From positions 186,001 to 250,000 of the forward strand of contig JAFQYG010000002.1 in assembly GCA_017406565.1 (NCBI GenBank): a DNA stretch of 64,000 bases, in the 5' to 3' direction. The position numbers were made by a program, and so were the translations under genes. Below are positions 2,399-53,483 of the stretch, piece by piece (within the stretch, counting starts at the first letter, position 1; each line of letters begins with the position of its first letter). Below the pieces are notes generated by a model. The model had not been told where the DNA came from. It was given only the letters and a program-made list of their open reading frames with translations, and did no database searches. The DNA is from Candidatus Saccharimonadota bacterium (GTDB taxonomy: Bacteria > Patescibacteriota > Saccharimonadia > Saccharimonadales > Saccharimonadaceae).

Positions 2399-3373
2399 TT
2401 ATTCTGGCATAAGAATAAGTGTATCTTGGTTTTTATCGAAGTAATAAGTATATTTATATTCTATGCCTGAATCATCTGTAATGGCAAAATGATAATGAGT
2501 ATCGTTCTTGAACCCAGTTATTTTTAAAGTATATTTACCTTCGTCTGCGTTAATAATTTCAACACTACCTTCTCCACCTTCACTGGACCAAAAACTGACG
2601 TAAGGATTTTCGTCGAAATTTAATTCGATGAGTTTACCATCGGTTGTGTCATAAGCATTGCGATAGACTTCGAACTCTTCTGGGGTAGCTGTAGTTATAG
2701 TGAGAATAATTGCTGCGATGATAGCTACAATAAAACTAATGATACGAGGTTCTCGTTTGCGGAAGATCCCGAAAATAAAGATCGGAATAATTCCGATGCA
2801 GTAGATTACTGTGATTAGATGATTTGGGAAACTGTTTTCGAAGCTATGGATATATGTGAGGGCAGTAAAAATGAGCAAGATAGTCATTGCTGATAGAATT
2901 AGGCCAGAGTACCATTTGTCTTTTTTCATATACCAACCGATAAAGCCTGCTGGAAGAGTACAGAGAGTAATTTTGAACCAGTAAGGATAGTAACCGAAGA
3001 GGCTCCACCCCATATTGTTGAATGGTACTTGAATAAGGTAAACGAGTGGTTGTGAAATTAAGAAGAATACAAATACTTTGAGTGCGGCTTCGATCGGCTT
3101 TTTGCAATTCATAATGATGATGATTGCAGGTAATACCCACCATTCTGGAGTGACGGCTATATCATGAAATGAATTTCCATCTGGAACTAGTAAAGCCATA
3201 AGTGCAGTGTAAATACCCATTATTACTGCGAAAATTATTACCACGGGCCAAGACATATTGAGCCCACCGAAAAACTTATGAAGAAGATTTGGTTTTTTAG
3301 TTACTTTATTTTGCTTCTTGATTTTTACGGCTTTAGTTTTTAAGTTTGTTGAATCTTTCTTTTCCTTCGACAT
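2399..3373 (-). CDS. Polytopic membrane protein with C-terminal extracytoplasmic domain
   Basis: Function not recognised. The N-terminus (about 35 residues) is Lys-rich and cytoplasmic. About six hydrophobic helices follow between residues 40 and 225, then a soluble domain of about 90 residues ending in a Tyr-rich beta-like segment. The pattern WWVLPAIIII...FFLISQPLVYLIQVPF recalls small uncharacterised DUF6518-like membrane families, but the match is weak. I chose ATG 3373 because a TATAAT box on this strand (3385-3380) ends six bases upstream. The gene converges on the TPR gene with five bases between their stops. Confidence 0.55.
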   Translation of the reverse strand: MSKEKKDSTNLKTKAVKIKKQNKVTKKPNLLHKFFGGLNMSWPVVIIFAVIMGIYTALMALLVPDGNSFHDIAVTPEWWVLPAIIIIMNCKKPIEAALKVFVFFLISQPLVYLIQVPFNNMGWSLFGYYPYWFKITLCTLPAGFIGWYMKKDKWYSGLILSAMTILLIFTALTYIHSFENSFPNHLITVIYCIGIIPIFIFGIFRKREPRIISFIVAIIAAIILTITTATPEEFEVYRNAYDTTDGKLIELNFDENPYVSFWSSEGGEGSVEIINADEGKYTLKITGFKNDTHYHFAITDDSGIEYKYTYYFDKNQDTLILMPE

Positions 3374-3471
3374 ATTCACATTATATCACTAATGCATATA
3401 TAAACCATTTTCTTCTCCGTTATTTCTTTAAAAAAATACTAAAAAGCTATTGTTTTTATGAATTGTAATTG

Positions 3472-3503: not shown

Positions 3504-6500
3504 GTGCTAAAAAGGTCAAAAATGTATAAATTTAAATATACCAAATATTTAGGTGCGATACTATTTTTGGTATTGTCTGTCTATGGTTGTGGTGATGTTT
3601 TTGCTACAATTAATCCGAATAATTATTCGATTAATTTCAGTATTCAAAACCAGGATCAGGGCGTCAGTGTGCCAGGTTCTTTTGATGGAGAGCGTTATGT
3701 TTTGATTCCGCGTACTTTGTCGGTTTCGACTAATGCTCCTTCCGGATATAGGATTTATGTTGATGTACCTAGCAATGAAGAGTCTCAAGGAGATTTGGTT
3801 TTGGTGGGCGGTACTTCGTCTAGCCCTAGTATTGATTTAGTAAATACAACTCCTGCTACCGCAAGTACGCTCAGCACTGACTCTTGGGGTTTTGGTGTCC
3901 CAAATTCTACTACTGGACTTCCTACAAATACTTTTAGCCCTACGTATAATGTTGCAAATCCATCTTCGAGCAATACTTTTTCAGGCATTCAGATTAATCC
4001 AGGCTATACTTTAGTTCGTAATGTACAATCTGCCGTATCTGGTACTGATAGCTTTGATTTGTATTATGGTTTGAGACTTGGGTCTGATGTTCTTTCAACG
4101 CCTGGCACGTATGAAACACATGTTTCATACCATGCTTTAATTGAGGCAACTGATGTTGCAGGCGGTGAGGCAACTATTACTCCATCTTCTGGGCCAAAGA
4201 CTGGGAATGATAGTGTAACTATAACAACATCCCTTAAAACTGACTTTGTGCCTGATGATCTTGATGTCACAGTCGGCGGATTAGATTGTAATAATCCTAG
4301 GGGTAATATTAGCACGGGCACACTTATAATTACTTGCACAACTCAAGCCCATACTCCAGGGCAGACTGATGTAGCGATAAATATAAATTCTTTAGGTATT
4401 AATTATACGATAGAAGATGGATATGAGTATTTAGAAACGGGGGATGTAAAGATTTCTAGTATTAGTTATATTTCTGGTACTAATGTTTATGGAACTCCGC
4501 ATCCAACAGTGACTGGGGACAACGATGTTGATTTTGATTTAACTTTTAAATCTGGTGTGACACAGGATGATAATACATTCACAGCAAGATATCGCATGAC
4601 AATCACTAATTCAACATCTAGCGATTACATCTTTACAGCTCCTGTATCAAATCTTGTTCTTAGACTATCTTCTACAACGACTAGCGAAGTATATTATGAA
4701 TTAAGTGGTATTTCGGCTGGCGACACAATTCCGGCTAATAGCTCAGTGACTTTTGATATAATTTTGTCGGCTGATTATGTGTCAGGCACACACGGAGTAG
4801 AAGGTGATATGGAAGTTAATCCGGTAGAGGATAAAACAGGTTCTTTAACTGGCACCATTAATGGTTCAGATGAAGGAGACCTTACCGGGAATCATGATTT
4901 GGCAATGTTCCAGATTAACGTGAATAATACTTATTCATCGGATAAAGTTTTCACAATTGATATTTTAGGGAATGATTTTGAGATTGCTGATTCTTCTGGA
5001 CAGTATTTAGGGACCCAAACTATTGCTGCTAATACTACATCGACTTATACATTTTATGTTAAGAAAGCAAATGGAGCTACTTATGGCAGTGATTATGTTA
5101 ACCGTGCAATAGCGATCAATTATGATGGCTTACAATCTAGTGTTGGTACCCTTAAACTAGCCGTAGATAAAGATTCATCTTATGTAGATAATGAAGCTCC
5201 TATTATTAATAATGTAACTATTGTACGCAATGATACGATTGGCTCTGCAACCGTTACCTGGAGCGGTACCGATAACGTAGGTGTGGCAAGCTACGCTATC
5301 TATCCATGCACTAAGGCTAATGATATTTATACATGCGGTAACCCCGTGACTGGGATTAGTGGTGACGCTACTTCTTATACATTGACTGGACTATCAGATG
5401 GTTTATATGGAGTGGTTGTAGTTGGATATGATGATGAGGGCAATACTGCTACGCAACAAGAGATTGATGAGGCTACGGTCGATTCGGGTCCTGCTTGCCG
5501 AAGTGCAGATACCGAAATAAGATGGACGTTCAATATTACTGGAAGGATTACTAATGGCTCACTAAGTAATAATGGTGGTACGATTCAGATGGGTGCCACC
5601 TATACTGGTACTATCAACCCTAATAGTGGATATAATACACCGAGTTCTATTACTGTTTCGATGAATGGTAGAAATCTAACCACTAGCGAATATCGATACG
5701 TAAATGGTTCGATTACTATTCAAATTCCAGTCGATGGCGATATTATAGTTACGGCAAGCTGTCCTTGGGATTGGTGTTTGATTGAAGGTACTATGATTGC
5801 GCTCGCTGACGGTACTTCTGTGCCGATTGAGGAGGTGACTTATGATACTTTGCTTAAAGTCTGGAATTATGAAACTGGTAGTGTGGGCGCAGAATACCCT
5901 GCTTGGATTGAAAAGAGGGGCACTACTGTTTCTTATCAATTGACCAAATTTAGTGACGGTACGGAACTAAAGACTTCTGGTTGGCATGGTGTATTTGATG
6001 TAGATAAAAACGCATTTATTTCAATCGATGATTCAGAGTTTGTAGTTGGTACTAGGATTTACAAAGTTAATGAAAACAACGAACTTGAAGCTATAACTGC
6101 GGTTAGTATTGAAAGAGTTCAGGAAGAAGTACACTATTATCATGTCGTTTCAAGTCAGTATTATAATATTATTGCCAATAACATTATAACTACAGATGGA
6201 GCAGTATATCTTTCGAACTTATACGGATTTGATGAGAATATTAAGTGGCCTGCCATACGTGAAGAAATTATGTCAGATCCGAACAATCTGTATACTTTTG
6301 AAGATTTTGAAGACATTGGGATGCCACGTAAGATGTTTGATGATTTGCGCGTACGTGAAGGTAAATATTTGGCGACTAAATATGGTATTACGCTCGAAGC
6401 ATTTAAGGGATATCTGTTAAGTAATCAGCTTAACACAGATATTTGGTTGCACTATTGTGATGGCTCGGAGAGATTAAAAGAAGAGTTTTGTCCGGTAATC

Positions 6501-6794
6501 CCTGAGCCTGATGATTCGATAAATAATACAAATGTTTCGACTAAGAATGTAACTCCTGTTTTAAATAGTACTTCATCTTCTTCTGAAGACGATGATGACG
6601 ACTATGAGAATTCTGAAATAGGTAAAGATGTTGAACCGCAGTTAGAAGTTCACGGCTCGACTGACGGTAAGATTGGCTCTAACAATGCTTTAGTTGATGC
6701 AATTATCGCTGGTTCAATCGTTACTGCGACTGGGTTAGCTTCTGCGATACTCTTGTCGAAGGAAAAGGAAGAGGAAGAGCAGGAAGAAGAGTAG
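3504..6794 (+). CDS. Large surface protein with TIG-like domain, Hint autoprocessing domain and C-terminal membrane anchor
   Basis: A 1096-aa exported protein. A signal segment (about residues 12-36) is followed by a Saccharibacteria-type beta domain (to about 215) and an IPT/TIG-like domain (about 220-310). Repeated beta domains with many Asn/Thr follow, then a fibronectin-like module (about 570-660). A Hint (hedgehog/intein) domain begins at Cys758 in the context CLIEGTMIALADG and has a TxxH block at TSGWHG (His828). After it come about 115 residues, a Ser/Asp-rich linker, a hydrophobic helix (about 1065-1085) and a Glu-rich cytoplasmic tail. Hint domains cut or rearrange the peptide bond before the Cys, so the exposed N-terminal part may be released or transferred; that is inference. 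No LPxTG motif is present. GTG 3504 and ATG 3522 are both plausible starts. Confidence 0.8.
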   Translation: MLKRSKMYKFKYTKYLGAILFLVLSVYGCGDVFATINPNNYSINFSIQNQDQGVSVPGSFDGERYVLIPRTLSVSTNAPSGYRIYVDVPSNEESQGDLVLVGGTSSSPSIDLVNTTPATASTLSTDSWGFGVPNSTTGLPTNTFSPTYNVANPSSSNTFSGIQINPGYTLVRNVQSAVSGTDSFDLYYGLRLGSDVLSTPGTYETHVSYHALIEATDVAGGEATITPSSGPKTGNDSVTITTSLKTDFVPDDLDVTVGGLDCNNPRGNISTGTLIITCTTQAHTPGQTDVAININSLGINYTIEDGYEYLETGDVKISSISYISGTNVYGTPHPTVTGDNDVDFDLTFKSGVTQDDNTFTARYRMTITNSTSSDYIFTAPVSNLVLRLSSTTTSEVYYELSGISAGDTIPANSSVTFDIILSADYVSGTHGVEGDMEVNPVEDKTGSLTGTINGSDEGDLTGNHDLAMFQINVNNTYSSDKVFTIDILGNDFEIADSSGQYLGTQTIAANTTSTYTFYVKKANGATYGSDYVNRAIAINYDGLQSSVGTLKLAVDKDSSYVDNEAPIINNVTIVRNDTIGSATVTWSGTDNVGVASYAIYPCTKANDIYTCGNPVTGISGDATSYTLTGLSDGLYGVVVVGYDDEGNTATQQEIDEATVDSGPACRSADTEIRWTFNITGRITNGSLSNNGGTIQMGATYTGTINPNSGYNTPSSITVSMNGRNLTTSEYRYVNGSITIQIPVDGDIIVTASCPWDWCLIEGTMIALADGTSVPIEEVTYDTLLKVWNYETGSVGAEYPAWIEKRGTTVSYQLTKFSDGTELKTSGWHGVFDVDKNAFISIDDSEFVVGTRIYKVNENNELEAITAVSIERVQEEVHYYHVVSSQYYNIIANNIITTDGAVYLSNLYGFDENIKWPAIREEIMSDPNNLYTFEDFEDIGMPRKMFDDLRVREGKYLATKYGITLEAFKGYLLSNQLNTDIWLHYCDGSERLKEEFCPVIPEPDDSINNTNVSTKNVTPVLNSTSSSSEDDDDDYENSEIGKDVEPQLEVHGSTDGKIGSNNALVDAIIAGSIVTATGLASAILLSKEKEEEEQEEE

Positions 6795-7186
6795 TGCACA
6801 AAAAAAGAGCCCCTGAAGGACTTTTGGTGCTGGAGGTTGGACTCGATTTGTTAGAACGAGTTTGAGAAAAACTGACTCTTAAGCCATGGTATATCATAGT
6901 TAATGAAGTTTCAACTATGTTCAAGGAAGATTTGATGGATAAAACTGTTCATCGTACCTTTTATCCTTTCATTATAGTAAGATTATATTATACTGTTTCT
7001 GTAGGGAAAGGGCTATATCGGCAAAACCCTAAAAATATGTTCGAAAAAATAAATACTTTTGTAGAAGTACTATGGAGGTAATTCCTATTATGCGTTTGAT
7101 AGTGGTAAGACTCCCAAAATCTATATCTATAACTTCTGCGAAGCTGTAGGTTGATTATGGGTATTATTTTGATATATAATACGTTT
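6795..7186. other. Intergenic region with tRNA-Tyr 3' remnant
   Basis: No gene seen in 392 nt. It holds a degenerate terminator-like hairpin (about 6803-6825), the 25-bp tRNA-Tyr remnant (6822-6846), and a block (6836-6893) that resembles 8863-8915 at roughly three quarters of positions. The promoter of the following gene lies at its right end. Confidence 0.7.
6822..6846 (-). repeat. Detached copy of the tRNA-Tyr 3' end (att-like)
   Basis: These 25 bases are identical to 9091-9115. That covers the CCA, the 3' acceptor strand and part of the T arm of the intact tRNA-Tyr gene, plus one or two flanking T residues. Similarity stops inside the T loop. This is the footprint expected at the far end of an element integrated into a tRNA 3' end. 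Confidence 0.75.
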
Positions 7187-8851
7187 ATGAATAATCCTGA
7201 AAAAACAAAAAATCTAGAGTGGCTAGGTGATGAAGACGAAAGAAATAGAAGACTTGGTCAATTGGGGCTGTCTAAGAGTCAAAAATATTCCGAATTATCA
7301 CAAGAAGAAAAGCAATTTTTAGATATGGATTATACTGAACGGAGAATGATAGAATATAGCTATAGTTTATTTCATCGTAATAAAGATTTGTCGACTAGAG
7401 ATTATAACGATAATAAGAGATCTTATATAAATACTTTTATAAGTTGGTATAATTTATTATCAAGTGTGATTATTTCGCCAGATAAACAATACACGCAACA
7501 ATTAAATCTGGCTTTGACGGACTCTGTCTTGAATCTTAATATTTCGGATGATAATATTCGAAAAATCGTTTTAATGATGAGTGAAGTTGATACTCCGAAT
7601 TTTGCAAAACAAATGGCAGTATTTAAGATTCAGCATCCTATTAATAAATTATCTGATGAATTTAGAGACCCTGACAGTAAATTGTCTCTTTCTACAGGGT
7701 TTGGGACTGATGGACGCCAGATACAAAGTCCAATTCTAAGAAAAACGATTTTCGACGATCATAAACTTGAGGGTAAATATGGCAGATACGGTACCGAAGA
7801 AGTAATATATAGAGATATAATAAAATGTGCATTTAACTCTGGCGGGAAAAACATTGAGCAATTCTTAGACAAGTTATCCAATGGTAATTTTATGATGCGC
7901 GCAATCATGCGTTGGCCTGATAGTAATGAACTGATTAGCAGATACTATTCCCAAAAAGACCTGAATAGTTTTCAAACATTGATTAGACAGTTGCATTCTA
8001 TGCATTATCAAACTAAGAGAGGCGAGGAAGAAGAATATGACTCATCGTTACATAACAAATATTATGATTATGGAAAAAGAACGATAACTGAGGTTAAGAC
8101 AGAGATACAAACCATTTATGATGAATATCGGCTGGACGAAAGAGATGATTTGGGGGATAAAGTCGTGCAAAGTTTCTGTTATCCACTTGGGATAAAAAGT
8201 GTTTCGGAGGCATATGATTATATTCAAGATGCTAGAATGAATTCATTTTTCAGACATCGTCAGTTAATGGAAAATGGTCAAGTCGGGCGAATTCGTAAAG
8301 GAGATTTGATAAAATCAGTAGTTAATGCAGATTACTTGCCGTTCCTACTAGAAAATGGTGTGATATCAAAGGAGTATTTAGGAGTAGGTGAGGCCAGTGA
8401 TTGTACCCCACTGGACACAGACGTATCGATGATTTTAGAGGAACCTTTAGGTTTGCGAAACGCTATTTCAAAAACTAGTGCTGCAGTATTTTCTGCTATG
8501 GGAGAATCAGACAACAATGATAATGTATTTTTAATATTTCGTAACGACGAAAGGTTTGAAAAATATGATGATGATGTTACCTCTTTTGATGAAGATAAAT
8601 ATGAAATATGTGGATATGGTGGCGGTAGTGTTATAAAAAACAAGGATGCTGATGAGTTTGAACATCCGGAAGAATACTGGTATATGGATGACCGTGGAAT
8701 TCGAACAGGTATCCCATCGTCTGAAATTGACTATATTGCAACCGATGAGAAGAGCGTAGAAAAAGTTATTGAGTCAGTTAAAGAAAGTAGACTTTTTATT
8801 CCGGTTACCAATCTAGATGGTATTATGATCTTTGATCCGTTTAAATTATAA
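7187..8851 (+). CDS. Unknown 554-aa protein, possible cargo of a tRNA-Tyr island
   Basis: Function not recognised. The protein is soluble and acidic, with no signal peptide or membrane helix. The N-terminal two thirds is mostly helical. The C-terminal part (about residues 365-554) is richer in beta structure. It contains the segments LPFLLENGVISKEYLG and SDCTPLDTDVS, then YEICGYGGG and RGIRTGIPSSEIDYI. The spacing of the last block faintly recalls ADP-ribosyltransferase-like folds, but no R-S-E or H-Y-E triad can be assigned. TATAAT at 7175-7180 ends six bases before ATG 7187, so the mRNA should be leaderless. Longer in-frame starts would place this promoter inside the coding region. Confidence 0.65.
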   Translation: MNNPEKTKNLEWLGDEDERNRRLGQLGLSKSQKYSELSQEEKQFLDMDYTERRMIEYSYSLFHRNKDLSTRDYNDNKRSYINTFISWYNLLSSVIISPDKQYTQQLNLALTDSVLNLNISDDNIRKIVLMMSEVDTPNFAKQMAVFKIQHPINKLSDEFRDPDSKLSLSTGFGTDGRQIQSPILRKTIFDDHKLEGKYGRYGTEEVIYRDIIKCAFNSGGKNIEQFLDKLSNGNFMMRAIMRWPDSNELISRYYSQKDLNSFQTLIRQLHSMHYQTKRGEEEEYDSSLHNKYYDYGKRTITEVKTEIQTIYDEYRLDERDDLGDKVVQSFCYPLGIKSVSEAYDYIQDARMNSFFRHRQLMENGQVGRIRKGDLIKSVVNADYLPFLLENGVISKEYLGVGEASDCTPLDTDVSMILEEPLGLRNAISKTSAAVFSAMGESDNNDNVFLIFRNDERFEKYDDDVTSFDEDKYEICGYGGGSVIKNKDADEFEHPEEYWYMDDRGIRTGIPSSEIDYIATDEKSVEKVIESVKESRLFIPVTNLDGIMIFDPFKL

Positions 8852-8913
8852 ACAATTGGTGGTTGAATCCAATTTGCTAAAACGAGTTTAAACAAAAATA
8901 GCCTTTAAGGCCA

Positions 8914-8931
8914 TGGTGCTGGAGGTTGGAC
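8914..8931 (-). repeat. Second detached copy of the tRNA-Tyr 3' end
   Basis: Eighteen bases match 9094-9111, the CCA end, acceptor strand and start of the T arm of tRNA-Tyr. The copy follows the block 8863-8915 that resembles 6836-6893. It suggests a second, nested integration or a tandem duplication. Confidence 0.65.
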
Positions 8932-8932
8932 A

Positions 8933-8956
8933 GTCATTTCGCTAAAGCGAAATGAC
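8933..8956. repeat. Perfect 11-bp inverted repeat with 2-nt loop
   Basis: GTCATTTCGCT is followed two bases later by its exact reverse complement. It lies downstream of the tRNA-Tyr fragment on the minus strand. It has no long T-run, so a transcription terminator is only one option. Confidence 0.7.
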
Positions 8957-8976
8957 AACGTCGGGCGTCGGTTCGG

Positions 8977-9002
8977 AATATAACAAACAAGTTTGTTATA
9001 TT
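8977..9002. repeat. Perfect 12-bp inverted repeat with 2-nt loop
   Basis: AATATAACAAAC pairs with GTTTGTTATATT across AA. It is enclosed by a second pair of arms (about 8966-8977 and 9021-9032, 11 of 12 bases complementary), so the region can form a long nested stem. Confidence 0.65.
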
Positions 9003-9056
9003 TACTCACCTCCTACGACGTCCGAACCTACGGTTCTCGTCCCACCTCACAATGTC

Positions 9057-9093
9057 AAAATTAAAATAAGACCCTTCGGGTCTATTTTAATTT
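9057..9093 (-). terminator. Strong hairpin immediately 3' of tRNA-Tyr
   Basis: A stem of about 17 bp with one bulged base and a short loop (the core GACCC-TTC-GGGTC) adjoins the CCA end of tRNA-Tyr on the minus strand, with an A/T-rich outer stem. This is its likely transcription terminator. Confidence 0.7.
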
Positions 9094-9179
9094 TGGTGCT
9101 GGAGGTTGGACTCGAACCAACGAAGCGCGAAGCGCGAGAGATTTACAGTCTCTTGTCATTGCCACTAGACGACTCCAGC
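9094..9179 (-). tRNA. tRNA-Tyr (GTA)
   Basis: Class II tRNA with an encoded CCA. The acceptor arms GCTGGAG/CTCCAGC pair fully. The anticodon stem AGAGA/TCTCT carries the loop CTGTAAA (anticodon GTA), and there is a long variable arm rich in GCG. The T arm GTTGG/CCAAC encloses TTCGAGT. Its 3' end is copied at 6822-6846 and 8914-8931. Confidence 0.95.
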
Positions 9180-9397: not shown

Positions 9398-10759
9398 ATG
9401 GGGAAGGTCTATATTGCAATTGATTTGAAATCTTTTTATGCTTCTGTTGAATGTGTTGAGCGTGGACTTGATCCATTAAAAGCTAAACTTGTGGTGGCAG
9501 ATGAATCTCGCACTGAAAAGACAATTTGTCTTGCGGTTTCTCCTGCTTTGAAAGAACTAGGTATTTCAGGTCGAGCAAGATTATATGAAGTTTTACAAAA
9601 AGTCCCGCGGGATAGTTTTATTATCGCCAAACCTCGGATGCGTAAATATATGGAAATCTCGGCGAAAATATTTGAAATTTACGCAAGTTTTGTAGCGACT
9701 CGTGACATGCATGTTTATTCTGTAGATGAAGTTTTTATAGACGCTACGAGCTATCTTAAAAATTATCAGATTACGGCGCATGAGTTTGCTAGGATAATGA
9801 TTAATGAAGTTTTGAAGCAAACTGGTATTACTGCTACAGCGGGGATTGGCAGTAATATGTATCTTGCAAAAATTGCAATGGATATTGAAGCTAAACACAT
9901 GAAACCGGATAAAAATGGAGTGAGAATAGCAGAGTTAGATGAAAAATCGTATCGTAAAAAGCTGTGGGATTATCAACCGATTACAGATTTTTGGCGTATA
10001 GGTCATGGATATAAAAAGCGACTCCTTGATCTCGGTATATATACGATGGGCGAATTAGCACGCTATTCTTTGACTGGTTCAGATAAACTATATGCAACGT
10101 TTGGTAAAAATGCGGAGCTTCTGATTGATCATGCTTGGGGGTATGAACCTGTAGAAATGAAAGATATTAAAAGTTATGTAGCAGAGAATCACAGTGTTTC
10201 TTTGGGCCAAGTATTATCAGAACCGTATGATTTTGATAAAGCGCGTAATATTATGTTAGAAATGGTCGACGCCTTGGTACTTGATCTTGTAAACAAAAAT
10301 TTGGTTACAGATCAGATTGTTCTTACTGTTGTTTATGATATTTCTACTATGAAAAAGTATTTTGGAGAGACACAAAAAGATTATTATGGTCGGACAATAC
10401 CAAAGCATGCACACGGAACAGCTAATCTAGGTTTTTTTAATGCATCCTTTAAAACTATAGCTAAAAAAACTTCGGAGCTATTTGATATGATTGTTAACCC
10501 TGAATTATCGATTAGGCGTATTTATGTAGTGGCAAATCATGTGCGTTATGATGCCGTAAAACCTTATCCTATGCAATTAGGACTATTTGATGATCCTATT
10601 GAACGCGAGAAAGAATTAAAAAAGGAATTAAATCGGCAAAAAGCAATTTTAAAAATAAAGCATCGTTATGGTAAAAACGCGATTCTTAGAGGTATTAACT
10701 TTGAAGAAGGAGCAACGATGCGTGAGCGTAATCAGCAAGTTGGAGGACATAAAGCATGA
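9398..10759 (+). CDS. Y-family DNA polymerase (DinB/UmuC-like)
   Basis: A lesion-bypass DNA polymerase of 453 aa. The metal-binding residues are visible: Asp9 in AIDLKSFYASVE, and Asp110-Glu111 in YSVDEVFID. The little-finger region follows. The length and the early FYASVE motif fit the UmuC/UvrX branch common in Firmicutes and mobile elements. ATG 9398 is chosen because TATAAT (9386-9391) ends six bases upstream; an in-frame ATG at 9383 would put the promoter in the coding sequence. The 3' end overlaps a YolD-like gene by 4 nt (ATGA), a known pairing in Firmicutes that supports a shared DNA-damage role. Confidence 0.92.
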   Translation: MGKVYIAIDLKSFYASVECVERGLDPLKAKLVVADESRTEKTICLAVSPALKELGISGRARLYEVLQKVPRDSFIIAKPRMRKYMEISAKIFEIYASFVATRDMHVYSVDEVFIDATSYLKNYQITAHEFARIMINEVLKQTGITATAGIGSNMYLAKIAMDIEAKHMKPDKNGVRIAELDEKSYRKKLWDYQPITDFWRIGHGYKKRLLDLGIYTMGELARYSLTGSDKLYATFGKNAELLIDHAWGYEPVEMKDIKSYVAENHSVSLGQVLSEPYDFDKARNIMLEMVDALVLDLVNKNLVTDQIVLTVVYDISTMKKYFGETQKDYYGRTIPKHAHGTANLGFFNASFKTIAKKTSELFDMIVNPELSIRRIYVVANHVRYDAVKPYPMQLGLFDDPIEREKELKKELNRQKAILKIKHRYGKNAILRGINFEEGATMRERNQQVGGHKA

Positions 10760-13183: not shown

Positions 13184-16100
13184 ATGTTGGGTATATCAAA
13201 CAGGAATGGTGTGCGTTTGCGATTTAGTCTTGTTTGCCTTTTGTTTGTAGGCGTTACTGTTTTTTGTAGCTTAGTTTCTTCCCATAGTGTTTTTGCAGCA
13301 GCAAAGCAAAGTACTATTACAGTGAATATGACTCAAGGTATACTTGATATTTCATTGACTCCTGATATTGATGGTAGGTTTGGTAAATCTGCAAACTCAA
13401 CAATCGACGTTAACACTGATAATTATACTGGTTATTCCATGAAGATAGTTTCAACGGGGTCCACTAGCTTAGTGGATACTAACGATGATGAAATTCAATC
13501 TATTAATTCCGCAATAAATGAATCAACCTTTGTTTCTGATAATAACTATGTTAATAAATGGGGGTATGTTCCTAGTCAATACATCGACGAAAACACTATT
13601 GTGAGTAATACTAATTATTTACCAGCACCTTCTTTAGAGGGGGATTTACTAGCAAAAACTAATGTGGCAAACAGTGCTGATGATACATATACTCTGTCTT
13701 TCGGTGCGAAGGTTGATCACCAATTACCTCCTGGGACATATCAATATACTTTTGTTTTACAGATTGTGGCTAATCCAATTGTATACAATATTACTTATGA
13801 CGATAATACTTCTGATAATGTTACTAATATGCCCACTCCAAATCCGCAAATTGTTAATATAGATGGTGGTACTCCGGTTCAGGACAGCTATGCTACTCTG
13901 AGTGAAAATACACCGATTAGAGATGGGAAGAGATTTGCTGGATGGTGTGACGTGGCTACGACCATAGACCCTGACACGGGTGATGATTTATGTTCGGGTG
14001 TGACATATTCTGCCAGTTCAGATTTGCCAATTGATCAGACCGCAGGCCCGAATATTACACTTTATGCTATTTGGAGAGAAGAAGCATATGTGTGTAAGAT
14101 TGCGGCCGCATTGCATACAGAAACTTGTGGTTGGGGCGCTTCGGATTCTTCGAAAGGATGTCGTGCTGCTGGTTTTTCATCGGGAGACACCATTGTTTAT
14201 GGTAATATAGTCGAATCGAATACTAAAGTTTATGGTGATGCTTATAACTGCGATATTAATTATGATGGGGTTTTTGATGAGAATACAGAGAGATTCTATT
14301 ATATCGGAGAAGATGGGACTAATGCTTCTTTAGTATATTATATGAACGAACCAGATGATGATAATTATGCGTGGGATGCAGCTTTAGAAGTTATGCCGGA
14401 TAGTACTTTATGGTCGAACCCAAATTTGATTTCGCAAGGTACCAAGGTTGCTAGATTTATGACTGTAAATGAAATATCTACAATATGTAATGGGACAAAT
14501 AGAATTGTACGAAGAATCGATAATACTTCAAAAGCTAACTGTGGCTATATTGCGGAACAGTCTTCTTATGCATTCCCAAGTGGTAAACATGATACGATTT
14601 GGCTTGATCGAGTGAATAATACAAATAGACGTATTCATCTTAGAGATGGCCAAACTATTGGAACTCCTGGTAGCACCAGTAAAAATGGTGTTCGCCCTGT
14701 GATTGGCGTTCCGCTAGATAAAATAGAACCATATTCTGCAGCGTATATTATCAGCTTTGATGCACATAATGAAACTGATGCAACTATTGTAAGAATAAAA
14801 CAAGGCGCTGCTCTCGGCTCAAATATTCCGGTAAATCCTACTTACACTAATCATTTGTTCCAAGGTTGGTTTACGGCAGATACTGGTGGTACTCAGATAA
14901 ATGCTTTGACTATACCTTCTAGCGATACGACTTATCATGCGCATTGGTTGAAGACTACATCTTTAGCTATACTTGCGAGGGACACTATTGCAGTAGAGCC
15001 TGAAGATAGTGTAACAATAAACGTCACAAACTCTGCCGAGCTTGAACCATATACCTTCTCTTCAAGTAATACATCAATTGCAACTGTGGATTCGTCTACA
15101 GGTGAAGTATCTGGTGTTGCCGAAGGAACCACTACTATTATTATGACGGGTTCTATTTCTGGGGCCACTAAGACAATTACTGTTAATGTAACTGAGGAAA
15201 TACTGCCGGTAACTCAAGCAATCATTGAAAATGATGACTTGACAATATATGTAGGCGAACAGACCTCTGTGGCCATCGATAATCTTGATGAACTAGAGCC
15301 CTATATTTTCTCGTCAGATAACTCTTCGATAGCCACAGTAGATACATACACTGGAGTAATTACTGGTGTAGGAATAGGTGTCACTAATATTATTATGACT
15401 GGTGAAAAATCTGGTTTAACTAAAAGTTTAGAGGTGAATGTTGTCGCGGTGCCTGCAATAATGCACACTGTTACTTTCAATGCGAATGGCGGTTCGTTTA
15501 ACGATCCAAGTGACGGTTCAAAACAAGTTGAGGAAAGCACTGCTGTAGGTGTTATGCCCACTCCAACAAGATCTGACTATATGTTCTTCGGCTGGTATAA
15601 GGACGACGGTACTTTTTATCAAGAAGTTTATCCAGAGGAAGAAATCAATGATGACGTGACTTATTATGCTAAATGGATAGAAAACTCTGGAAATTTCCAG
15701 ATTAAATTCGCCGAAACTAATGTTTGTAACTTTACAGGAACGGCAGTATCTGGAGATTACTGTAGCCATATTTCTGACTCTTCGTATTACATAGATACAA
15801 ATATTAAATTGCTTAATGACGCTAATTATGAAAAAGACTTTGAAATTGGGTTTAATATTGTAGAGTACTCTCCTTCCAGTCAAATACCTACTTCTGGAAA
15901 TGCTGGCGGATCTCAAGCGACATTTGTTAGTTCAAAAGCAGAGGACAGTGCCAATGATTATCCTGGGTTTGTACTTCGTCGAAGTGGCACAAGTCTTCAA
16001 CTTACTGCTAGATGGAAAGGCGATACTAACAATGCGGTAACATTCTCTTCTGCAGCGCATTCAGTCAAGATATCTAGACGTAAAGAAGAAGCTACTCCAG

Positions 16101-16291
16101 GAAATATAACTTATAAAATTTATTACACAGTTGATGGTGTTGAAAGATTATTCCAAGATGTTACGGATAAGACTAAGCTTCCAATTGAAACGAAAGTTTG
16201 GTTTGGTGGGGCAGTTAATGCTGATGGTATTTCACCGATGCGGCCACTTGTAGCAAAACTCACTGATATGTATGTAAAACTCGAGGAATAA
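13184..16291 (+). CDS. Secreted surface protein with InlB-type repeats, Big2 domains and C-terminal lectin-like domain
   Basis: A 1035-aa exported protein. A signal peptide (about residues 1-39, ending ...VFAAAK) precedes the beta domain also found in the 3504 and 59848 proteins (about 40-200). A first InlB/Listeria-Bacteroides repeat (about 205-295, ending LYAIW) and a Cys-containing module (about 300-505) follow. Next come a second InlB repeat (to about 595), two Big2-like Ig domains (about 600-765) and a third InlB repeat (about 770-850). The last domain, about 180 residues, is LamG/concanavalin-like. No C-terminal membrane helix or sorting motif is visible. It is likely an adhesin for the bacterial host or animal mucosa, by inference from domains. 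TATAAT at 13136-13141 gives a leader of roughly 40 nt. Confidence 0.8.
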   Translation: MLGISNRNGVRLRFSLVCLLFVGVTVFCSLVSSHSVFAAAKQSTITVNMTQGILDISLTPDIDGRFGKSANSTIDVNTDNYTGYSMKIVSTGSTSLVDTNDDEIQSINSAINESTFVSDNNYVNKWGYVPSQYIDENTIVSNTNYLPAPSLEGDLLAKTNVANSADDTYTLSFGAKVDHQLPPGTYQYTFVLQIVANPIVYNITYDDNTSDNVTNMPTPNPQIVNIDGGTPVQDSYATLSENTPIRDGKRFAGWCDVATTIDPDTGDDLCSGVTYSASSDLPIDQTAGPNITLYAIWREEAYVCKIAAALHTETCGWGASDSSKGCRAAGFSSGDTIVYGNIVESNTKVYGDAYNCDINYDGVFDENTERFYYIGEDGTNASLVYYMNEPDDDNYAWDAALEVMPDSTLWSNPNLISQGTKVARFMTVNEISTICNGTNRIVRRIDNTSKANCGYIAEQSSYAFPSGKHDTIWLDRVNNTNRRIHLRDGQTIGTPGSTSKNGVRPVIGVPLDKIEPYSAAYIISFDAHNETDATIVRIKQGAALGSNIPVNPTYTNHLFQGWFTADTGGTQINALTIPSSDTTYHAHWLKTTSLAILARDTIAVEPEDSVTINVTNSAELEPYTFSSSNTSIATVDSSTGEVSGVAEGTTTIIMTGSISGATKTITVNVTEEILPVTQAIIENDDLTIYVGEQTSVAIDNLDELEPYIFSSDNSSIATVDTYTGVITGVGIGVTNIIMTGEKSGLTKSLEVNVVAVPAIMHTVTFNANGGSFNDPSDGSKQVEESTAVGVMPTPTRSDYMFFGWYKDDGTFYQEVYPEEEINDDVTYYAKWIENSGNFQIKFAETNVCNFTGTAVSGDYCSHISDSSYYIDTNIKLLNDANYEKDFEIGFNIVEYSPSSQIPTSGNAGGSQATFVSSKAEDSANDYPGFVLRRSGTSLQLTARWKGDTNNAVTFSSAAHSVKISRRKEEATPGNITYKIYYTVDGVERLFQDVTDKTKLPIETKVWFGGAVNADGISPMRPLVAKLTDMYVKLEE

Positions 16292-51443: not shown

Positions 51444-52595
51444 ATGCAATATAAAACTCTAGATTCGTTATGTAAAGTCGCATCAGGCGGTACGCCATCA
51501 CGCTCAAAGAAAGAATACTGGGATGGCGGAGATATTCCTTGGATCAAGATTGGCAATATTAAAAGCAAAGTAGTCTCCAACGCTGACGAGTACATAACTG
51601 AAGCTGGCTTAAATAATTCATCGGCTAAATTATTTAAGAAAGGCACAATCCTGTATACGATTTTTGCCACATTGGGCGAAGTGGGCATCTTGGATTTTGA
51701 CGCTTGCACCAATCAGGCAATAGCTGGGATATCTATAGAAAAAACTGAAGAAATAACTACGGATTATCTGTATTATTACCTGAAGTCGAAAAAGGCCGAA
51801 GTCAACCAAATTGGTAGAGGCGTTGCTCAGAATAACATCAACCTATCGATCCTGCGCAAGTTCTCAATTCCGATGAGGGATATCGATGAGCAGAAGACTA
51901 TCGTCGATTCTCTTAATAAAGCAGAGTCAATTATCGAAAAACAGAAGCGACAATTAGAACAATTAGACGAGCTAATCAAAGCCCGATTTGTCGAGATGTT
52001 TAATAGAAATTTCAACAATACCGTTGAACTTGGTAATGTCTGTGATGTGCGCGACGGTACCCATGATTCGCCAAAGTATCACGACGAAGGCTACCCATTA
52101 GTAACGTCAAAGAATATTTGCGATGGGGAGATCGATTTTTCCACTTGTAATTTAATCCAGAAGGAAGATTACGACAAGATCAACAAGAGATCCAAGGTTG
52201 ATATTGGCGATATCTTAATGCCAATGATAGGCACCGTTGGTAATCCTATTATCGTAAATACCGACAAAGAATTTGCTATAAAAAACGTAGCATTAATTAA
52301 GTTCAAGGATGATACAGTAGCTCTTAATTCATTTATAAAAGCTCTACTTGAGTCTGACTATTTTGACAGAGCCGTACTTAGCAAAACAAAAGGCGGAACG
52401 CAAAAATTCATTTCGCTTGGTGACATTAGGAAATTAGAGTTTAATTTGCCGCCAATTGAATTACAAAAACAATTCGCCACCTTCGTCACACAGGTCGACA
52501 AATCAAAATTTGCGCTAAGCAATGAACTTGCGATGTGCAACTTTTACGTTCGTCTGGTTCACGATTGCGTAATGCATGGTTGTATCAATTTGTGA
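51444..52595 (+). CDS. HsdS2 specificity subunit in inverted (likely silent) orientation
   Basis: A 383-aa type I specificity subunit on the strand opposite to hsdM. TRD1 begins YKTLDSLCKVASGGTPSRSKK. The central coiled coil contains LIKARFVEMF, TRD2 begins ELGNVCDVRDGTHDSPKY, and the 3' block is TQVDKSKFAL. After that block the tail differs from HsdS1 and is read antisense through the last 81 nt of the tyrosine recombinase gene. No promoter is seen upstream other than the palindrome, so it should be expressed only after inversion places it behind hsdM. Confidence 0.88.
   Translation: MQYKTLDSLCKVASGGTPSRSKKEYWDGGDIPWIKIGNIKSKVVSNADEYITEAGLNNSSAKLFKKGTILYTIFATLGEVGILDFDACTNQAIAGISIEKTEEITTDYLYYYLKSKKAEVNQIGRGVAQNNINLSILRKFSIPMRDIDEQKTIVDSLNKAESIIEKQKRQLEQLDELIKARFVEMFNRNFNNTVELGNVCDVRDGTHDSPKYHDEGYPLVTSKNICDGEIDFSTCNLIQKEDYDKINKRSKVDIGDILMPMIGTVGNPIIVNTDKEFAIKNVALIKFKDDTVALNSFIKALLESDYFDRAVLSKTKGGTQKFISLGDIRKLEFNLPPIELQKQFATFVTQVDKSKFALSNELAMCNFYVRLVHDCVMHGCINL
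51973..52001 (+). repeat. Shufflon repeat B (in hsdS2)
   Basis: A 29-bp exact reverse complement of 54055-54083 in hsdS1; 24 bp of it also match 50917-50940. Confidence 0.88.
52494..52513 (+). repeat. Shufflon repeat C (in hsdS2)
   Basis: Reverse complement of GCAAATTTTGATTTGTCGAC. With hsdS3 the match extends to 26 bp. It lies one base from the recombinase stop codon. Confidence 0.85.
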
Positions 52596-53483
52596 ATGAC
52601 CTAGCAGTTTCTGAACTTGCTCGATTGGCATCCCTTTGTCGATTGCACGTGTCGCCATAGTCCGGCGGAATTTATGAGGGTGAACTTTATTTATGCCTAA
52701 TTCGCGTCCTAAGCGCCTCAGACGGATTTCTACGCCAGATATCTGTAATCTATCGTAAGGCGCGTCAAGCGTCACAAAAAGGGCAGGATTTGCGTCAGAG
52801 CGGCTATTTATGTAGCCCATTAGGTGTATCTTGGTTTTAGCATCGAAATATACGCGCCGCTCTTTGTCGCCTTTGCCGAAAACTATGCATTCGCGTTCTT
52901 CAAAGTCTATGTCGTCAATATTAAGTCTTACGAGCTCACCAATTCTAATTCCGGTCGAGTAGAGAAGGTCAATAATTGCCAGGTCGCGTAAGCTGCTGCA
53001 TCTGTCGCGCATTTTTTCGATTTCTTCGTCCGAGATTATTTCTTTCACGGTTTTTGTGGTTTTGATTTTATGGATCCTACGCATTGGGCTTTTAATGATA
53101 TAATCTTCTTCCTCAAGCCAAGTAAAGAAGCTCGAGATATTGCGGCGGATATTATCGATCGTGGTTTTGCTACAATCATTTAGACCTTGATAGTTCGCAA
53201 GGTAATCACGTATGTCGTCGGTGGTTACTTTACGTATCGGATCATCTATCTCGTCTAATAGCTTTTCTATGGTGGTCTTATAGTAGGATAAGGTCCGCTC
53301 GGAACATCCTTCAATCTTTTTGGCATTCAGAAACATCGACAGATAATTGTCGTTTGAAATGCCATTTATCGACCTCGTTTCTTTCGTTAGGCGCGAAACG
53401 AGCACACGTTGTAGTTTTTGTGACTGATTTGCGGTGAGATATTCGTCCATATCCACCAAAATATATTTAATGGTATCTTCCAT
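52515..53483 (-). CDS. Tyrosine recombinase of the hsdS shufflon
   Basis: A 322-aa XerC/D-like integrase. A SAM-like core-binding domain (about 40-140) precedes the catalytic domain with Arg180 (TGIRIGE), Lys204 (FGKGDKER), His270-x-x-Arg273 (HPHKFRR), His296 (LLGHSQ) and the nucleophile Tyr305 (TMHYA). Enzymes of this kind invert hsdS segments in phase-variable type I systems of Streptococcus and Bacteroides. It lies between oppositely directed hsdS genes bounded by inverted repeats, which strongly suggests the same role. Its 3' end overlaps hsdS2 antisense by 81 nt. Confidence 0.9.
   Translation of the reverse strand: MEDTIKYILVDMDEYLTANQSQKLQRVLVSRLTKETRSINGISNDNYLSMFLNAKKIEGCSERTLSYYKTTIEKLLDEIDDPIRKVTTDDIRDYLANYQGLNDCSKTTIDNIRRNISSFFTWLEEEDYIIKSPMRRIHKIKTTKTVKEIISDEEIEKMRDRCSSLRDLAIIDLLYSTGIRIGELVRLNIDDIDFEERECIVFGKGDKERRVYFDAKTKIHLMGYINSRSDANPALFVTLDAPYDRLQISGVEIRLRRLGRELGINKVHPHKFRRTMATRAIDKGMPIEQVQKLLGHSQIDTTMHYAIVNQTNVKVAHRKFIA

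Follow-up and report, generated by a model that had tools for sequence, protein, structure and literature searches.

Hairpin units ending in copies of the adjacent tRNA 3' end in Saccharibacteria, a probable stack of them behind a tRNA-Tyr gene, and their likeness to the RtT repeats of Escherichia coli

Repeats of a tRNA 3' end are known from the tyrT locus of Escherichia coli K-12, where the last 19 nucleotides (nt) of tRNA-Tyr are repeated behind tyrV at intervals of 178 bp, with one further copy in front of it; we know of no accepted origin or function for them. Comparable traits occur in other systems. The attC sites of integrons are imperfect hairpins in which one strand is the recombination core, and clusters of attC sites lacking integron-integrases (CALIN) form arrays with or without genes and have no local integrase. 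Tycheposon-like islands, mobilised in trans, occupy a tRNA 3' end and carry partial tRNA repeats and variable cargo with no integrase of their own. The present analysis concerns a 64,000-nt stretch of a Candidatus Saccharimonadota genome (GenBank assembly GCA_017406565.1, contig JAFQYG010000002.1, positions 186,001 to 250,000), referred to as the window, in which a tRNA-Tyr gene is followed by two partial copies of its own 3' end, several hairpin units and a gene for a 554-amino-acid (aa) protein. In the literature on the E. coli family, one paper derives RtT RNAs from many E. coli tRNA operons, tyrT among them, and links them to the stringent response (PMC4986893), so that for gammaproteobacteria a connection with more than one tRNA was already known. 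Other sources report RtT small RNAs near Asn and Lys tRNAs of Actinobacillus, a similarity of some E. coli bacterial interspersed mosaic elements (BIMEs) to the rtT transcript (PMC2965389) and a covarying tandem-GA motif (PMC7657543). No earlier description of such units in Saccharibacteria or Patescibacteria was found in the open literature, a scope that left subscription papers and preprints outside.

The region is best read as a stack of hairpin units that copy the tRNA 3' end behind tRNA-Tyr, into which a gene was captured, a reading to which we assign a probability of about 0.7. Three classes of unit are distinguished by labels coined here: type C is the RtT-like form, type B a short form at Tyr, Thr and Leu tRNAs (GGACTCG-loop-CGAGTCC) and type A the form at Ala, Arg, Glu and Ser tRNAs. 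Read in the sense of the tRNA, the array consists of tRNA-Tyr, a terminator, the RtT-like unit ending in the second copy of the tRNA end, a further terminator with a decayed type-B unit, the 554-aa gene on the opposite strand, and a type-B unit ending in the third copy and followed by an old terminator (Table 1). The RtT-like unit starts about 40 nt behind the tRNA.

Table 1. Features of the tRNA-Tyr array, with positions in the window
Feature	Position	Strand	Basis
tRNA-Tyr (gta), intact, CCA encoded; anchor of the array	9094-9179	minus	ARAGORN, Rfam tRNA
Terminator-like hairpin straight after tRNA-Tyr; core of palindrome 9056-9095	stem 9083-9069	minus	hairpin scan
RtT-like structured unit (model R1); closing stem P1 and three inner arms	8914-9052	minus	R1, 138.6 bits
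Middle copy, exact tRNA-Tyr nt 59-76 (last 18 nt); 3' strand of the unit's closing stem	8914-8931	minus	
Terminator-like hairpin straight after the middle copy	stem 8914-8898	minus	
Type-B unit B1, tRNA-end copy decayed	8857-8913	minus	aligns to B2
Gene for the 554-aa protein, putative cargo	7187-8851	plus	554 codons from the first ATG; 566 from TTG
Arm of type-B unit B2 (ACTCGTTCT...CGAGT hairpin and upstream arm)	6836-6893	minus	
Distal copy, tRNA-Tyr 3' end (22 nt) with 3 nt of flank	6822-6846	minus	
Terminator-like hairpin straight after the distal copy	stem 6822-6808	minus	

An initial annotation of the window had noticed these repeats and proposed a minimal or decayed mobilisable island with a single gene. 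Its description of the repeats is borne out by alignment: the 25-mer TTTTGGTGCTGGAGGTTGGACTCGA is exact at both 6822-6846 and 9091-9115, the last 22 nt of tRNA-Tyr being present again at 6825-6846, and the 18 bp of the middle copy are likewise exact (chance expectation given an 18-mer, 64 kb and both strands, about 2e-6). The resemblance it saw between two blocks (6836-6893 and about 8857-8915) also holds, with a BLASTN identity of 45/61 and a local score of 35 that none of 2000 shuffles matched, and it is explained by the type-B arm at the distal copy together with the decayed type-B unit at 8857-8913, whose tRNA-end copy is not significant on its own (shuffle P 0.34). The degenerate terminator that it placed at the first copy does exist as hairpin 6808-6822, but it is one of three, a terminator-like hairpin on the tRNA strand standing directly after each of the three tRNA-Tyr 3' ends; judged from the order of insertion that the layout suggests, it is presumably the oldest terminator of tRNA-Tyr. 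The hairpin next to the tRNA itself lies in a palindrome with perfect 13-nt arms (9056-9068 and 9083-9095). Two features had escaped the annotation, namely the conserved folded element at 8914-9052 and the inversion of tRNA-Tyr relative to most relatives: among 42 loci compared (46 less four without tRNA-Tyr), the tRNA and the neighbouring tetratricopeptide repeat (TPR) gene share a strand in 30 and are inverted in 12, the window belonging to the latter group.

The 139 nt of 8914-9052 fold at -57.4 kcal/mol, against -34.5 kcal/mol in shuffled sequences (z -6.7, 0/200). A covariance model of 134 nt, R1, was built from an alignment of the window unit with eleven similar stretches from relatives, ten at tRNA-Tyr and one (L066) at a contig end; in its consensus the closing stem encloses a 5-bp hairpin, then a long arm and a final hairpin, and the tRNA-end copy forms the 3' strand of the closing stem. 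Compensatory changes affect 25 of 45 pairs, compared with 12.7 in shuffles and 4-8 in slid structures, and 70 cells are altered on both sides, compared with 21.1 in shuffles (0/500 reach the observed value) and 7-13 in slid structures. The inner stems are 97% Watson-Crick, with 13 G-U and 4 A-C pairs, and the closing stem contributes a further 23 and 18. With G-U pairs few and barely above A-C pairs (36 vs 22 overall), the units carry no clear signature of an RNA strand, and the stem data fit a DNA and an RNA nature of the units alike.

In E. coli, the Rfam model of RtT (RF00391) marks four units in the tyrT locus. The same four rank first (20.7 to 15.3 bits) when this 3.5-kb locus is searched with R1, which was built without E. 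coli, and in 103.5 kb of E. coli sequence the only two R1 matches are both RtT units (20.8 and 18.7 bits, E 0.0037 and 0.013). A comparable arrangement is found at lysV of E. coli K-12 (locus L334, 21254-21519), where an exact copy of the last 18 nt of tRNA-Lys closes a 156-bp unit and the same terminator stands behind the tRNA and behind the copy; Rfam scores this unit as RtT at 47.3 bits (gathering cut-off 45), and R1 does not find it. In both settings, a unit behind a tRNA ends in the last 18-19 nt of that tRNA (E. coli tyrT and lysV; at least 17 nt in 30 of 59 Saccharibacterial elements), the copy builds the closing stem, and a GAGAACC...GGTTCG hairpin is shared, whereas the inner arms are unlike. 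RF00391 matches nothing in 19 Saccharibacterial loci at E<=5 and nothing in the genome of the window at E<=1, no score reaching the 45 bits for gathering, and among 14 control genomes it has matches in E. coli only. Since the Rfam model misses them, the Saccharibacterial units are called RtT-like here and not members of RtT; they are probably homologous to the E. coli units.

As a family, the RtT-like unit is dispersed and covarying, stands behind many tRNA isotypes and ends in the last 17-20 nt of the adjacent tRNA. R1 has matches in 65 of 80 genomes of the genus, with up to 16 per genome and two in the genome of the window, whose second copy (contig C1, 125-247) has no tRNA in the 1.5 kb of sequence available. 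Of the 30 best R1 loci, 28 lie behind a same-strand tRNA, representing eight isotypes, and the other two reach contig edges. With 41 units added from six genomes, picked because their copies are many or strong, the set comprises 69 distinct elements, of which 59 have a same-strand tRNA at most 300 nt upstream (median gap 44 nt) of one of 12 isotypes, Pro being doubtful among them because it has no convincing copy. The longest string shared with the last 22 nt of the element's own tRNA measures 17-20 nt in 30/59 and at least 12 nt in 36/59; with tRNAs of other isotypes as the null, the maximum is 10 nt in 3082 comparisons. A second model, R2, whose alignment also contained two E. coli units and some weak reverse-strand matches, has matches in 9 of 286 genomes of the phylum. 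Five units belong to a genome of another genus in the same family (G220), two with exact copies of 18-19 nt (Ala, Gly) and two with partial ones, and a genome of another family (G631) has one unit at an Arg tRNA with a 19-nt copy.

Smaller units behave similarly, and the distal copy in the window belongs to one such class, type B, which is also found behind other tRNAs. In the genome of the window 46 tRNAs were found, and 47 distinct predicted tRNA sequences, with downstream stretches of unequal length, were scanned for copies. Besides Tyr, copies were found for five tRNAs (Arg gcg, Ala cgc, Ser tga, Glu ctc and Thr cgt): 62-64 nt downstream of each, its last 18 nt are repeated exactly and close a unit of 80-82 bp. 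In a scan of 184 tRNA contexts from the loci then collected, a downstream copy within 8 kb was present in 25 of the 47 Tyr contexts that had 150 nt or more of sequence behind the tRNA and in 7 contexts of other tRNAs, while the upstream control gave 0/181. A Thr(ggt) match lying inside tRNA-like sequence (L137) and Gln(ctg) calls without CCA (L074) were dropped from the non-Tyr examples. Unit presence is patchy at orthologous tRNAs. Some arrays are tandem, and their order varies, with B followed by B in three loci (L103, L106, L120), C then B in L155 and B then C in L163. The exact type-B pattern occurs in 14 of 392 genomes of the order, all within the genus, a restriction of little weight because other genera may have other tRNA-Tyr ends.

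Insertion of units at the tRNA 3' end predicts that the sequence past the copy matches the one straight after the tRNA in an unoccupied relative. Such pairs are found at tRNA-Ile (L226, with a 179-bp unit, and L209, each against L311) and at tRNA-Tyr (L162, 183 bp, against L121; L152 against L025; L144 against L134; L022 and L141 against L025). Flank matches scoring at least 60 number 14/68 with the same anticodon and 3/68 with other anticodons as the null. As far as sequence comparison can show, insertions at tRNA 3' ends thus occurred in some cases. A terminator follows the copy in 12 of 30 cases, much the same frequency as after tRNAs generally (127/286); at random positions the count is 158/2000.

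The reading as a stack implies the following process. The 3' end of a tRNA gene would be the exact point of entry, the tRNA would stay whole, and each new unit would push the earlier 3' end outward, so that copies pile up. The units would be moved in trans by an enzyme, probably one reading a folded strand, a mechanism that fits because the core is one strand of a hairpin in all unit classes; cargo could be gained or lost between units. With attC sites and CALIN arrays the units share a hairpin strand that carries the core and an organisation into arrays with or without genes and with no local integrase. Unlike at those sites, their core equals the 3' end of the neighbouring tRNA and differs from site to site, and the genome has no integron integrase, the models staying below cut-off for both of its tyrosine recombinases (best named XerD/XerC-like and XerA-like); by this analogy, recombination of the units is putative. 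BIMEs and repetitive extragenic palindromes (REPs) resemble the units as dispersed palindromic elements and differ in that the units stand behind tRNA genes and have a target-derived end. From tycheposon-like islands, the units differ in being mostly gene-free and in that one family serves many tRNAs.

Several observations weigh against this reading. The copy is shorter than 17 nt in 29 of the 59 elements with a tRNA, and 10 of the 69 elements have no tRNA within 300 nt. The nearest interior is found at the same tRNA (by anticodon) in another genome for 17/59 elements (mean 4.0, maximum 12 in 200 shuffles) and within the same genome for 8/59 (mean 3.8, maximum 11); interiors thus group weakly by anticodon and not clearly by genome, which gives no clear sign of recent spread. 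Taken with the tRNA-specific copies, this grouping indicates that copies match the tRNA beside them even in units that may have been inherited, which suggests a continuing homogenisation of tRNA and copy. A cruder first count of empty sites favoured the flank after the tRNA (41 vs 23 of 68); because it had taken contexts with decayed units as empty, the anticodon control replaced it, and at L207 the flank after the tRNA is still the better match. One genome, G541, has nine weak R2 matches, seven of which were examined and none of these has a tRNA nearby; they are probably something other than the units. It is from its position between the units that the 554-aa gene would appear captured. Finally, no enzyme is tied to the units, in a search that covered tyrosine recombinases and not serine recombinases, HUH or REP-associated tyrosine (RAYT) enzymes, Cas1 or reverse transcriptases.

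Among the alternatives, the strongest, which we nevertheless hold to be rather unlikely, is that the units serve mainly as functional RNAs, as trailers released by processing of tRNA transcripts like the rtT RNA of E. coli, whose mobility is incidental and whose identity to the tRNA is kept because RNA processing or competition needs it. In its favour are the strong covariation, the way copies track the local tRNA variant, the annotation of the homologous-looking E. coli units as the small RNA rttR and the stringent-response link drawn in PMC4986893. Against this stand the terminator-like hairpins, which separate tRNA and unit in 26/30 and 26/29 cases, the almost purely Watson-Crick inner stems with their lack of a clear RNA-strand signature, and the patchy presence of units at orthologous tRNAs.

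Improbable, in our estimate, is the classical tRNA-targeted island, in which an element with a tyrosine integrase entered tRNA-Tyr, the integrase was lost, and the repeats are attL and attR. It would account for direct repeats that run from the T-loop to CCA on the strand of the tRNA, for variable cargo and for the missing integrase. As the initial annotation stated, the 554-aa gene is alone between the repeats, the open reading frame listing and a search with PF00589 revealing no integrase there. The same copies, however, also occur in hairpin units that hold no cargo, measure about 60-260 bp and stand behind Tyr and many other tRNAs (12 isotypes), each copy matching its own tRNA, and the middle copy is part of a structured unit, so that the annotation's view of the repeats as att sites of one minimal island is not supported. 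Its suggestion of more than one insertion behind tRNA-Tyr agrees with the structured unit and the type-B units found there.

As a check, the annotation had advised looking for an integrase acting in trans elsewhere in the genome. PF00589 finds two genes in this genome, both away from the tRNA-Tyr locus, one XerC/D-like and present genus-wide. The other encodes a 322-aa XerA-like tyrosine recombinase at 52515-53483 of the window, on the minus strand between two hsdS-like genes, and is probably an invertase that switches type I specificity. Among the matches listed for the genus sample, none places an extra tyrosine recombinase in the tRNA-Tyr region; the one near the TPR gene, in G094, is not on the flank that the tRNA 3' end faces. 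An island integrase acting in trans was rejected: the four genomes with most units (G061, G084, G077, G087) have one PF00589 match each among the matches listed, so that a high unit number does not go with extra tyrosine recombinases.

Very improbable is a local tandem duplication with slippage and later divergence and no movement between tRNAs, for although the 178-bp units of E. coli tyrT stand in tandem, as do those of some Saccharibacterial arrays, local duplication cannot produce a folded interior common to 12 isotypes and other families of the phylum, and precise single insertions with empty sites speak against it as well.

A bolder extension of the preferred reading, which we regard as doubtful, is a bacterial mobile element able to lodge behind nearly every tRNA gene, its closing stem being templated anew from the target. 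Each copy would then be a fresh duplicate of tRNA nt 58/59-76 with a matching complementary arm. One route would use folded single-stranded DNA as the recombination substrate, as for attC; another would be tRNA-primed copying halted at the modified T-loop adenosine, as in tRNA-primed retroelements. Copies of 18-19 nt do start at tRNA position 58/59, which recalls tRNA-primed reverse transcription. The E. coli tyrT repeats, whether fossil or still alive, would in that event belong to a family that also occurs in Patescibacteria.

The large and diverse Saccharibacterial family provides comparative data beyond the single E. coli locus, namely copies that follow the tRNA, empty sites and a covarying structure, and it opens the testable questions of whether units move and what holds the copy identical to the tRNA. 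It also cautions against taking every short copy of a tRNA 3' end as the mark of an integrase island.

The gene between the outer repeats is flanked by two smaller hairpins. The gene is rare in the genus: a homologue of the 554-aa protein with 67% identity occurs in only one (G017) of 60 genomes searched, or 1 of 35 other genus genomes, and there it adjoins tRNA-Val and not tRNA-Tyr. Distant homologues (27-29%) are present in G009 and G008, and three further matches (E 0.006-0.06) were too weak to be counted. In the closest relative (G126, L132), a 326-aa gene fills the slot between the structured unit and the type-B distal copy, in agreement with the annotation's expectation of a variable slot with different cargo at tRNA-Tyr; its homologue in the window lies at 2399-3379, beyond a Hint-like gene.

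Contigs of the GTDB genomes contain relatives of the protein at 34 loci in Saccharibacteria, other Patescibacteria and mostly gut Bacilli and Clostridia; viral contigs yielded none. In 21 of 22 loci examined, 310-389 extra residues follow the shared part, an extension that the window protein and its G017 homologue do not have and that, in one of two long proteins tested, weakly matches cyclases of cyclic-oligonucleotide-based antiphage signalling systems (CBASS; E 9e-4). Relatives of 900-1850 aa in gut Bacilli, Clostridia and Saccharibacteria (for example L068, 8293-12312) join the shared domain to a C-terminal nucleotidyltransferase-like part. A structure model of the 554-aa protein was computed from 23 sequences, including 22 relatives from one each of 22 of the 34 loci (predicted local distance difference test, pLDDT, 77.7), and supersedes a discarded model from 4 sequences (pLDDT 50). 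For residues of about 369-546, the six best VIA-align rows are all of the ADP-ribosyltransferase fold (DarT, Tpt1 and CteC type; Z 5.9-7.3, root-mean-square deviation 3.3-4.3, 111-139 residues aligned), and Foldseek returns nothing at E<=0.001 with this model. The C-terminus is tentatively predicted to have a DarT/Tpt1-like ADP-ribosyltransferase fold. A PADLOC match to Cas9 (E 0.001) and a Pfam match to DUF6843 (E 0.033) are taken as chance.

A viral origin of the units was considered and rejected, the pattern TCGAGTCCWACYTCCAGCACCA matching four IMG/VR contigs, each time inside a tRNA gene. One contig called viral (L185, IMGVR_UViG_3300031555_005592; 10599-10683) contains two large serine recombinases and ends in a Saccharibacterial-type tRNA-Tyr; it is either an element inserted at tRNA-Tyr or an assembly chimera. 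Next to the distal copy in the window, 3504-6794 encodes a protein of 1096 aa that is probably secreted, matches intein/Hint-like domains weakly, ends in an acidic C-terminus and has a 78% homologue at the same place in G126. Further along, 13184-16291 encodes a 1035-aa protein with List_Bact_rpt and Big_2 repeats, whose relatives at the locus vary strongly in length and reach about 2300 aa.

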